DNA from: Rugalucina vietnamica
Lineage: Eukaryota > Mollusca > Bivalvia > Lucinida > Lucinidae
Reading direction: 5' to 3'
Assembly: GCA_964017185.1 (NCBI GenBank)
Contig: OZ024878.1
Span: 4,030,151-4,094,150 of the forward strand
DNA: 64,000 nucleotides
Below are positions 36,801 through 42,800 of this stretch, piece by piece. The position numbers and the translations under genes were made by a program. The notes beneath the pieces were generated by a model. That model searched no databases and had not been told where the DNA came from. It was given only the letters and a program-made list of their open reading frames with translations. Numbering within the stretch: the first letter of the stretch is position 1; each line of letters opens with the position of its first letter.

Positions 36801-39800
36801 AATTTGTCAAAAATTATTTTTTCACCAATAAAATTCTTTATGCACATCTTCAATATGTCTGTAACATGTCTGCAAAGTATTGAAAATAATTACTGAAAGC
36901 CCCAGGAGGAGTTGGATTTCACAAAGTATGTACTATCAACCATAATTGAATATAAGCAGAGATGGTCAAAATTGGCTAAGTTTAAAAAGCTGTAAATTTG
37001 TCAAAACTAAAATTTTCAGCATAAAAATTCTTCATGCACATCTTCAATATATCTGGAACAAATCTGCAAAGAATTAAAAAGAAACAATGAAAGCCCTAGG
37101 AGAAGTTGATTTCACAAAGTATGCACTTCCAACCATTATTGTATGTAAGCAATAGTCGAAAAATGGCTAAGTTAAAAAATGCTGTAAATTTGTCAAAAAC
37201 TTTTTTTTCAGCATTATAATTCTTCATGCACATCTTCAATATGTCTGTAACATGTCTGCAAAGTACTGAAAAGAAATACTGAAAGCCCTAGGAGGAGTTG
37301 ATTTCACAAAGTATGTATGTAAGCAATAGTCGAAAAATGCCAAAGTTAAAAAAGGCTGTAAATTTGTCAAAAATTATTTTTTCAGCATTATAATTCTTCA
37401 TGCACATCTTCAATATGTCTATAACATGTCTGCAAAGTACTGAAAAGAAATACTGAAAGCCCTAGGAGGAGTTGATTTCACAAAGTATGTATGTAAGCAA
37501 TAGTCGAAAAATGGCAAAGTTAAAAAATGCTGTAAATTTGTCAAAAATTATTTTTTCAGCATTATAATTCTTCATGCACATCTTCAATATGTCTGTAACA
37601 TGTCTGCAAAGTACTGAAAAGAAACACTGAAAGCCCTAGGAGGAGTTGATTTCACAAAGTATGCACTACCAACCATTATTGAATATAAGCAATTATAGAA
37701 AATTTGCTAAGTTAAAAATGCTGTAAATTTGTCAAAAATGATTTTTTCAGCATGACAATTGTTCATGCACATCTGCAATATATCTGAAACATATCAGCAA
37801 AATATTAAAAGGAAACATTGAAAGCTGTAAGAGGAGTTGATTTCACAAAGTATGTACTTTCAGTACTATGGCAAACATGTTATAGGAAGACTTAAAAAGT
37901 CCCATAACTCTTGCAATACTGACCCTTTGGCCCCTAAATTCATACCACACATGCATTGTCTGATGGTGCAAGTGTGGTGAAAATTTGAAACAAATCAGGC
38001 AAAAGCTACTCAAGTTATTCAGCAAAGATGTCCAAATGTTGACGGAATGACGGAATGACGGAATCACGGAATGACGGAATCACGGAATGACGGACAGGCT
38101 GAAAACAGTATACCCCCCTAAAACTTCGTTTTGCGGGGGGTATAAATAGATCAGCTGTACAGAATTTATGCACAAGGCATAAATGGGAAACATTGTAATA
38201 ACTCACTAGCTTTATATAATCTAAAGAAATTGTGATCAACTTTTGAAAACATCTGTGCTCCCTTTTCATTTCATGAGGTATATCTATCCAAATGTCTACT
38301 GTTTTGCAGTTTCTAATTTTACCAATGACGAACTTAAGACAATTTGGTCTCTTACAGAAAGAGTAAAATGATATTCATATTCTTTCTCAAAACAAAATCT
38401 CATACATATATCAGAAATTTATAAAGACTGTAAACATTTACGTATTGAAACCTGTAGTAAATTCTCAGATAGTATCAAAACCTTACCTGTACATCTGTAC
38501 CATTCTTGCAGCATGCCCCATATGACAGTATTGCACTTTTCACAGTAGTGTTTAGAGCCCCGACTAGTCTTCAGTTCAAACTTGTGACCTACTACCAGCT
38601 TAATGCCCTCTGGGACTGGCTCTGGACCCTCCTAGTAGACATAAATCAAAGATTATAGTTTAGAGCCCCGACTAGTCTTCAGTTCAAACTTGTGACCTAC
38701 TACCACCTTAATGCCGGCTGGGACTGGCTCTGGACCCTCCTAGTAGACATAAATCAAAGATTATAGTTTAGAGCCCCGACTAGTCTTCAGTTCAAACTTG
38801 TGACCTACTACCAGCTTAATGCCCTCTGGTACTGGCTCTGGACCCTCCTAGTAGACATAAATCAAAGATTATAGTTTAGAGCCCCGACTAGTCTTCAGTT
38901 CAAACTTGTGACCTACTACCACCTTAATGCCGGCTGGGACTGGCTCTGGACCCTCCTAGTAGACATAAATCAAAGATTATAGTTTAGAGCCCCGACTAGT
39001 CTTCAGTTCAAACTTGTGACCTACTACCAGCTTAATGCCCTCTGGGACTGGCTCTGGACCCTCCTAGTAGACATAAATCAAAGATTATAGTTTAGAGCCC
39101 CGACTAGTCTTCAGTTCAAACTTGTGACCTACTACCACCTTAATGCCGGCTGGGACTGGCTCTGGACCCTCCTAGTAGACATAAATCAAAGATTATAGTT
39201 TAGAGCCCCGACTAGTCTTCAGTTCAAACTTGTGACCTACTACCAGCTTAATGCCCTCTGGGACTGGCTCTGGACCCTCCTAGTAGACATAAATCAAAGA
39301 TTATAGTTTAGAGCCCCGACTAGTCTTCAGTTCAAACTTGTGACCTACTACCACCTTAATGCCCTCTGGGACTGGCTCTGGACCCTCCTAGTAGACATAA
39401 ATCAAAGATTATAGTTTAGAGCCCCGACTAGTCTTCAGTTCAAACTTGTGACCTACTACCACCTTAATGCCCTCTGGGACTGGCTCTGGACCCTCCTAGT
39501 AGACATAAATCAAAGATTATAGTTTAGAGCCCCGACTAGTCTTCAGTTCAAACTTGTGACCTACTACCACCTTAATGCCCTCTGGGACTGGCTCTGGACC
39601 CTCCTAGTAGACATAAATCAAAGATTATAGTTTAGAGCCCCGACTAGTCTTCAGTTCAAACTTGTGACCTACAACCACCTTAATGCCCTCTGGTACTGGC
39701 TCTGGACCCTCCTAGTAGACATAAATCAAAGATTATAGTTTAGAGCCCCGACTAGTCTTCAGTTCAAACTTGTGACCTACTACTACCTTAATGCCCTCTG

Positions 39801-42800
39801 GTACTGGCTCTGGACCCTCCTGGTAGATATATCATGTTCACTGGTGATTGTAGAGCAATTAAAAGTGAGACCTACATGTCTTTATCTTTTGGCATAGCCA
39901 ATTTTCAACAATTTTTCAATCATGTTTGGACACAGCAATCGCTTCCTGGATATTAACCAGAGCTGCCTCACAAGAAAACCAACATTCTGCATATGCCAAA
40001 CCAAAGGCGCAGATCAGCTTCGCAGTAACTGCGAAGCTGATCATCCCTCTGTTTTCGCTATACCAATAGTATAATTCCTCTACTTTCTAAATCCAAAATT
40101 TCCAGCCTCTAGCCATCTTCTGTGCTTGTAGAGCTCGGTTTGTGTCAAACCTGTTTGGAAACCACATTGTTGGTTTTCCCATAACACTGCTAAACCAGTA
40201 CTGTGGGCAGACAATGTGTCTTGTTCATCATCATGAACACACCCAAACACCAGTGGGGTTTTTACCTCTCATTCTGGCGTTCAACACACTAACCAATAAG
40301 CAGCTACGGTCCCAAATTTCACTGTTTAGCACGACAGATTCATAATGACGTCTAAGGTTTGTAACCAGCCTATTTCAGAATTATTGATGGAAGACCAACC
40401 ATCACAGCAATGGTTTTGTTTTCTGAATAATCATTGACAGTATACCTTGACTTCTTGTAGTTTCATGCGCAGCTGTACAAGTTTCTTGACTAGATTTTTC
40501 TGTTTGTCGGAGTGAGGTGGAGCGTCAAGGATCATATCTTTACAAGTCTCTATAGCCATCTCTAACTCTTCTGTGTTACTCATACCAAAATAGCCCTGAA
40601 AGATACACAGAGAAAAAATGAGCCGCCACATGGGAAAACCAACAATCGCATAGGCGAAAACAAAGGCGCAGATCAGCTTCGCAGTAACTGTAAAGCTGAT
40701 CAGCGCCTTTATTTTCGCTACACGGATAGCACAATTCCTCTACTTTCTAAATCCAAAATTTCCAGCCTCTAACCATCTTCTGTGACTGTACAGCTCGGTC
40801 TGTGTCAGACCTTGTCGGAAACCCAAATTGTTGGTTTTCTCACGCACAGGCTCAAATATGTCTTCTGGTCAACTCAAACCCAGACCTTTGGTTGTTCTTT
40901 ATGATTTCCATATACACAGTTACATTCTGAATATTAGTACATGTCAAACTGCCCATAGGCAAGTGTGGTTTCGCAGCTATGGTCAGGCCTGATAAACTTC
41001 ATATCAAAAGATTTGATGTCAAAAGATTTGATGATATTTTATTTCTGATGCAACCCAAAAAGTTGACAAAATCTCCTATGAAAGTCAAAATTTGAGCCAC
41101 CCCATGGGAAAACCAACAATCTGCATATGCCAAAAACAAAGGCGCAGATCAGCTTCGCGGTAACCGCGAAGCTGATCATTCCGAAGCTGATCAGCGCCTT
41201 TGTTTTCGCTACACGGATAGTACACTTCCTCTTCTTCTTAAATCCAAAATTTCAAGCTTCTAGCCTGCTTCTGTAGCTGTACAGCTCTGTTTGAGTCAGA
41301 CCTGTTCGAAAACCACATTGTTTGTTTTCCCACGAGGCAGCTCATTTGTAGTTAAATTTGTCTGTAGACTATGAAAGTATGTGGTTTTGTGGACTGCAGT
41401 GAAATCAATCAGCCAGTAGATCACAAGAAACCTTTGTATGGCGAGAATAGTATAAAAGACACTGGCACTGGCTTGATATCACATTACATGTACAGGGTTT
41501 TCCCTGGCGCACAAAAACAGACATTTTGACCCCTTTTTGTCTCTTATGACCCCCAAAATTATCCAGAGAGGGGACAGGTATGTCCCAAAAAATTCTAAAA
41601 TATTTCTATTTCATAAGTAAATGTCCCCTATAATCTCAACAGTTTGGTCAAAATGTCCCCAGGTGCCGCCATTAGTGGGGCATTGATCCCCTAAATTAAA
41701 CTCTGAGGGAAAACCCTGCATGTACATGTATTTATAAGGCTCTATAAAACAGAGCACATTTGCATGTTATTGCATGATAAATTGAAATCAAACAGGTCAT
41801 AATGATGAAGCAGGATATTCAGGGTGTGCCCTAGTTTACCTCTGGTTGTGAGAAATGGTCGTGGAGAATACCCAGATCAGCTGGCGTGATGTCATCGGGG
41901 TCACTGAGATTGGTCCAAGAACTGGTGGTGGAATCTACAAAACACAGAGTACATGTAATTGGTAAACTGTAGGAATATGGAATTAAAGAGTGTTTCAACA
42001 TTGCACAAACAATTACATTTTATCATAGCAGAGCAGTTTTACAATATCAAAATGGTCCGGTGATACATGCTTGAAAAAAACAAAGACTAACACTAAGATG
42101 AAAAAAGAAAATATGAGCAGTCCCCTTTAATGCTACAAAGTAATAGGTAATACAGTTTCTCTACTTACACTAAATTTTAAGCCTCTAACAATAATTCTAT
42201 GACATTGTAAAGCGTGAGTTGCATCAAACCTAGTGGAAACCTCAAAGGCAACATTTTTGTATGTTTTTGTGTGAAAGAAACCTGTTAGGAGACTCATAGG
42301 AAATATTACCTGATTTTAATCTTCCAACTGGACTTCTACGTTTTACCCCTGAGGTACTATCAGTAAAATAATCTTCCTCTATATGAAGGTCTCTATCAAA
42401 TGGATTAAACCGACTGTTCTTGAAATTTGACTTGTTTTCACTTAAACGTCTTGAGTTTAGTTTGGCCTCTGATTCAAAAGACCCAGTTCTTCCTTTGGAA
42501 TGTTTGAAGCCTAACACTGCCTCACTTTTACTGTGTTTCATGACAGAATTGCTTGATGTTTTTGATTTTGCTCCTTTTGAGAATTCCAACCCCTTGTCTA
42601 AGACATCATCTTCCACTACACCGCTATCATTACCATTCACCATATTTGTATTATTGCACTCAGTTACCGTGGCCTTCACCTTATCATCCATATTTTCCAT
42701 AATGGCCTCGTCTTCAGACTCGGAAGAATCAAAAAGTTCAGCGACATTTTTCATAACTCGCCCCATCATTTTAACAGAAGCCACTGAAGTGTCCGACTCC

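Follow-up and report, generated by a model that had tools for sequence, protein, structure and literature searches.

A twelve-unit minisatellite across the intron 3/exon 4 boundary of DEF8 in the bivalve Rugalucina vietnamica

A window of 64,000 nucleotides from the lucinid bivalve Rugalucina vietnamica (GenBank assembly GCA_964017185.1, contig OZ024878.1, positions 4,030,151 to 4,094,150 of the forward strand) carries a DEF8 gene on its minus strand and, at the boundary between intron 3 and exon 4 of this gene, 12 in-register tandem copies of a 108-bp unit on the same strand (Table 1). A preliminary description of the sequence had named the gene, and the domain order agrees: Pfam places a C1_1 domain at residues 307-358 of the 609-aa protein and a Rubicon homology domain (RH_dom) at 402-603. 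Among the best 120 of 246 homologues, those that bear a name are mostly called 'differentially expressed in FDCP 8'. A tree built from 18 DEF8 proteins pairs the R. vietnamica sequence with P0001, which is 96% identical to it over 400 columns (residues 210-609), beside the proteins of Mya, Dreissena, Mactra and Mercenaria, a position taken to be that of a heterodont bivalve. A genome search with exons 2-11 returned 25 matches, 22 of them at the DEF8 locus and just three elsewhere (C15, C14 and C8) with 31-55% identity; DEF8 thus looks single-copy. Its introns 3 and 4 measure 1814 and 3732 nt.

Tandem Repeats Finder calls the array at 38550-39831 with a period of 108, 11.9 copies and 97% matches. 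The shared unit joins 82 nt of exon start to 26 nt of intron end. The preliminary description had likewise counted twelve 108-bp copies upstream of exon 4, and the repeat call, the register and the strand bear this out; its division of the unit into 81 nt of exon and 27 nt of intron corresponds to whole codons. The intron parts of units 2-12 are identical, and the 34 nt before the acceptor are common to these units. Exon parts differ among units at 0-4 of 82 positions (3 between units 1 and 12), and in an ungapped comparison 14 of 26 positions in the unit-1 flank do not match the repeated intron part. The array thus crosses the intron-exon boundary of a coding gene at the exon 4 acceptor, its inner units are alike with the edge unit excluded, and unit types are shared at lag 2. 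It is a minisatellite of the type described as 'mirages' in amphioxus (PMC3087553), set in an otherwise intact DEF8 gene.

Table 1. Features of the DEF8 locus and of the array at its exon 4 acceptor (window coordinates)
Feature	Position	Strand	Description
Tandem array	38550..39845	-	12 exon-type 82-nt parts (39819 down to 38550), separated by 11 identical intron-type parts of 26 nt; unit-1 flank 39820-39845
First bases of exon parts, units 1-6	39819, 39711, 39603, 39495, 39387, 39279	-	
First bases of exon parts, units 7-12	39171, 39063, 38955, 38847, 38739, 38631	-	
Exon part of unit 1, which follows the outermost acceptor (..ATATATCTACCAG)	39738..39819	-	probable ancestral acceptor position
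Units 6-11 with intron parts	38658..39306	-	alternate, together with unit 12, between Leu/Glu and Val/Ala (216-bp higher-order repeat)
GCTCTA, outer copy of proposed founding direct repeat	39851..39856	-	37 nt ahead of unit 1, in the intron flank
GCTCTA, inner copy of proposed founding direct repeat	39741..39746	-	unit 1 exon part, +73 (in unit 12: 38553-38558)
DEF8 coding region	27807..42937	-	11 exons (second exon 7 copy uncounted), 609 aa, GT-AG introns
DEF8 exon 3	40446..40595	-	ends ..LQEVK, phase 0, donor GTATAC
DEF8 exon 4, as predicted in use	38487..38631	-	145 nt, of which 38550-38631 is the exon part of unit 12 and the rest unique; donor CAG|GTAAGG

Six distinct unit sequences occur, in ordered places. 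In units 6-12 the Leu/Val codon reads CTG GTG CTG GTG CTG GTG CTG, the Glu/Ala codon alternates with it, and the translated unit 12 is of the Leu/Glu type. This order upholds the earlier claim that the seven units nearest the exon alternate as a 216-bp pair. When the whole array of 12 units is shuffled, 19 of 20,000 shuffles reach the excess of likeness at lag 2 over lag 1; for units 6-12 alone 144 of 5040 orders do so, a modest result.

The array lies within a 57.3-Mb contig of an assembly of 1,089,854,562 bases in 47 contigs. Matched to this whole genome in a search whose repeat counts are lower bounds, the unit gives 12 matches, all at the DEF8 locus. Nearly identical units invite the question of whether a real array was assembled with the wrong unit number or with its haplotypes merged; a mirage was misassembled in the amphioxus draft genome (PMC3087553), and exon 7 of DEF8 is doubled too. 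The ordering of the six unit sequences within so long a contig argues to the contrary, and we regard such an assembly effect as quite unlikely.

None of 64 kinase exon pieces, from 59 loci scanned out of 60, overlaps a tandem array of period at least 20 in the R. vietnamica genome (the pieces were hand-picked from 136 matches, mostly short ones); two arrays come within 60 nt of a piece, and arrays occupy 2.6% of the 136,259 bases. The window's eight other large arrays all lie clear of the DEF8 exons, and an Rfam scan of the window gave no match at gathering score.

The two edges of the array suggest how it formed. Because the flank of unit 1 is unique intron and that of unit 12 is unique exon, the array seems to have grown inside exon 4, leaving the old acceptor outermost. 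The outermost acceptor (39819) thus most likely holds the ancestral position, and acceptor 12, the one predicted to be in use, would be a duplicate. The preliminary description had the spliceosome meet eleven decoys before the real acceptor; as a layout this stands, but the outermost of these decoys, with its unique intron flank, is most likely the ancestral site.

The motif GCTCTA occurs at -37 and +73 relative to the outermost acceptor, 110 bp apart. Aligned to the repeated intron part, the unit-1 flank scores 9.5, a value reached by 8 of 5000 shuffles, and nine other DEF8 intron ends score 1.5-5.5. A search of the window for a source of the 26-nt intron part, using its first 20 nt and allowing up to 3 mismatches, gave 11 matches, all in the array. 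The unit probably arose between the two GCTCTA copies: tandem duplication between the intronic and the exonic copy would have produced a first extra unit, and unequal exchange could then have expanded the array, lately in 216-bp pairs adjoining exon 4. The likeness of the units, with the flank left out, reads as the product of exchange between units, by analogy with amphioxus. Two observations sit awkwardly with this origin: the GCTCTA spacing is 2 bp off the 108-bp unit, and a flank that differs at 14 of 26 positions beside exon parts that differ little would require either long exchange or selective pressure on those exon parts.

With the exon extended as far as its real donor, the 609-aa protein results only from acceptor 12 (38631), and acceptors 1-11 each lead to a stop after 319 aa, the frame ending CTA TAA inside the C1 domain and ahead of its cysteines. 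Exon 4 is 145 nt long with acceptor 12 and 253-1333 nt long with the others. Splice-site scores, computed from frequency tables and suited to ranking sites only, are 2.3 for the acceptors of units 2-12 and -3.0 for that of unit 1. Ten other DEF8 acceptors range from -9.1 (the second exon 7 copy) to 8.2, which makes the repeated acceptor middling, and 222 of the 4038 AG dinucleotides on the window's minus strand score at least 2. The exon 4 donor, at 12.2, is the highest in the gene (exon 3, 3.7; exon 6, 4.7).

Donor-like sites also occur inside the units. AAG|GT lies 33 nt past the acceptor in 8 of 12 units (1-5, 7, 9 and 11; scores 3.5-5.8) and a GT at +39 in all 12, the coding unit included (3.5-3.7); both are in phase 0 and would leave introns of 75 and 69 nt, respectively. 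The case for either as a donor is weak because scores of at least 3 are common, being reached by 492 of the 3503 GT dinucleotides of the window's minus strand. These sites bear on the earlier statements. That the decoys run into an in-frame TAA holds for all 11 upstream acceptors with the exon run on; that only one copy has a donor is too strong, as donor-like GTs, though weak and common in the background, are present in every unit; and that a wrong choice truncates DEF8 is right if the exon runs on and wrong as a necessity, since with the predicted in-phase AAG|GT sites of eight units such a choice need not be fatal.

The same sites raise the possibility that units are spliced as in-frame 33- or 39-nt exons that would lengthen, as a repeat, the linker before the C1 domain. 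Their scores overlap those of the real exon 3 and exon 6 donors, and in potato an intron arose from a duplicated boundary by way of a cryptic donor (PMC4974935). Besides being matched by so many background GTs, however, the +39 site is shared by the coding unit, and the homologues speak against added codons: 145 proteins were compared, none known to be from R. vietnamica, and 121 of the 122 that span the exon 3/4 junction have no insert of at least 8 aa there, the last being a fish prediction with an unrelated 34-aa insert. We therefore consider such an array of microexons highly improbable. We also considered whether the CTG type in unit 12 was selected for removing AAG|GT and set this aside for now: P0001 has Val at this residue, as do 42 of 93 matched homologues, and Val would restore AAG|GT wherever the Lys codon before it is AAG; unit 12 also retains its +39 site.

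We consider it likely that the array is a boundary minisatellite founded at GCTCTA, that exon definition selects acceptor 12 and that the decoys are near-silent. Long flanking introns favour the sites nearest each other across the exon (PMC9225289), and with its strong donor and long flanking introns exon 4 would be defined across the exon. The spliceosome would then mostly take the acceptor nearest the exon 4 donor, and the 11 upstream units would be removed with the intron. Rare use of an upstream acceptor would give the 319-aa frame, and nonsense-mediated decay should remove such transcripts; the array itself would be near-neutral and probably unstable in length. Both the reading frame and the length of exon 4 point to acceptor 12, and a transcript-like contig comes from a relative only: P0001 is a 608-aa protein encoded by a 1915-nt contig, proportions that make the contig very probably spliced RNA, and in it exon 3 is joined to one exon 4.

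Several points count against this account. Acceptor use in R. vietnamica is predicted from sequence alone, and P0001 belongs to a relative and is not known to come from a species that bears the array. In a human-type database, moreover, the upstream 3' splice site is preferred overall, a preference that exon definition reduces and does not reverse (PMC9225289). Some leakage to upstream acceptors is likely for this reason, with acceptor 12 expected to be used in most cases.

Were the leak a steady share of transcripts, it could act as a brake: acceptors 1-11 would feed transcripts into the TAA and decay, and unit number would tune DEF8 output. The equal score and common 34 nt of acceptors 2-12, the stop that follows each upstream acceptor and the overall preference for upstream 3' sites (PMC9225289) are all compatible with this. 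The amphioxus mirages, on the other hand, left regular splicing undisturbed (PMC3087553), and two protein searches, with 22 and 13 matches, brought up nothing recognisable as a truncated product, though they cannot exclude one. The 319-aa product gave the 22 matches (E 1e-10), inspected in part, and a 99-aa piece of exons 3 and 4 gave the 13 (E 1e-8); all of the latter were inspected and none crosses the exon 3/4 join. On balance a brake seems unlikely. A stem that hides the decoys was also considered and is without support, because one unit folds no better than its shuffles, 181 of 200 of which equal or surpass it (z 1.19).

A more far-reaching proposal is that the array is a living reservoir for the coding exon, in which the unit that adjoins the donor is the one translated, unequal exchange can carry variants (Leu/Val, Glu/Ala) from untranslated decoys across into the coding sequence, and the degree of DEF8 truncation, or of extension by 11-codon repeats, is set by unit number; we offer it as a long shot.

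Elsewhere in DEF8, exon 7 occurs twice on the minus strand (32610-32737 and 32777-32904), with 39 nt between the copies, which are 167 bp apart. Both have the donor AAG|GTAGGT, and the second has a purine-rich acceptor that scores -9.1. Beyond the first 8 nt the copies differ at 6 positions, every one silent, an outcome found in 1 of 50,000 random sets of 6 changes. The doubled exon could reflect constraint on two exons spliced in a mutually exclusive way, or an assembly that joined two haplotypes.

The window holds further repeats. Copies of a short dispersed element that contains an inverted repeat (GATCAGCTTCGC..GCGAAGCTGATC) lie in and near DEF8 intron 3, at 39989-40139, 40648-40799 and 41130-41200. 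Arrays at 23480-24605 and 37140-37858, the latter in DEF8 intron 4, have consensus units of about 191 and 174 bp that look alike by eye. A 138-bp array of 6.6 copies on the minus strand (55422-56338) is open in one frame with a 46-residue repeat (KAREKQTDILRKKEALNKETP..) and is probably a coding repeat. A 736-aa open frame on the same strand (50110-52320) looks like a Helitron-type helicase with an endonuclease-like part behind it.

As the acceptors of units 2-12 have the same upstream 34 nt and differ mainly in their distance to the donor, the DEF8 array provides a natural test, at equal strength, of 3' splice site choice and of the reach of exon definition. It adds a mollusc to the boundary-spanning arrays of amphioxus and moth, and its candidate founding direct repeat bears on the birth of new introns and exon variants. 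Our literature searches, which covered open-licence papers, found no mollusc case.

Several known systems invite comparison. The closest are the amphioxus mirages, minisatellite-like tandem duplications spanning an intron-exon boundary in the globin genes BflGb6 and BflGb9 and in Adh3; BflGb6 has 6 and 3 units in two haplotypes, and reverse transcription PCR suggests regular splicing; for Adh3 somatic instability is reported, and the authors put forward a model of intron gain (PMC3087553). Boundary-spanning arrays with homogenised inner units and excluded edge units are common to these genes and DEF8, and BflGb6 also has the polarity of the DEF8 array. The systems differ in phylum, in unit length (150-160 bp in BflGb6 and 10-72 bp in Adh3 versus 108 bp) and in unit number, BflGb6 units being counted as duplicates and the 12 of DEF8 including exon 4. 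Paired higher-order units set the DEF8 array apart, and it is known from one assembly, whereas length variation and reverse transcription PCR are reported for the mirages (PMC3087553). By analogy with the BflGb6 haplotypes, copy-number polymorphism of the DEF8 array is a reasonable expectation.

In potato, a tandem duplication that spans an intron-exon boundary gave the RdRp gene a new intron (PMC4974935). There, as in DEF8, the duplicated segment joins an intron end to an exon start and could be divided by a cryptic donor within its exon part; potato, however, has one duplication and a new intron seen in RNA, whereas DEF8 has 11 extra units read from DNA, in which the new-intron donors are candidates. 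Fission yeasts carry 24-nt exonic repeats with introns, likewise tandem arrays in coding genes that are partly spliced out, but with a wholly exonic unit, an AGGC proto-splice site and no copying of a pre-existing boundary (PMC3629103). Related intron gains have been described in Drosophila (PMC2891723).

The protostome comparison comes from the moth Ostrinia nubilalis, in which 181-bp repeats of exon 7 and intron 7 occur in four receptor genes, OnubOR5 and OnubOR8 among them (PMC3081303). These two genes share with DEF8 a tandem repeat of exon plus intron at one exon edge; the moth repeats, of 2-5 complete units, take in the 5' end of the following intron, on the donor side, and stand after the real exon. 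The role proposed for them is in gene duplication, and the word 'splicing' is absent from the available part of that text (PMC3081303). The kind of array is thus already known from amphioxus and, at the donor side, from a moth, and the DEF8 array brings a new phylum to it.

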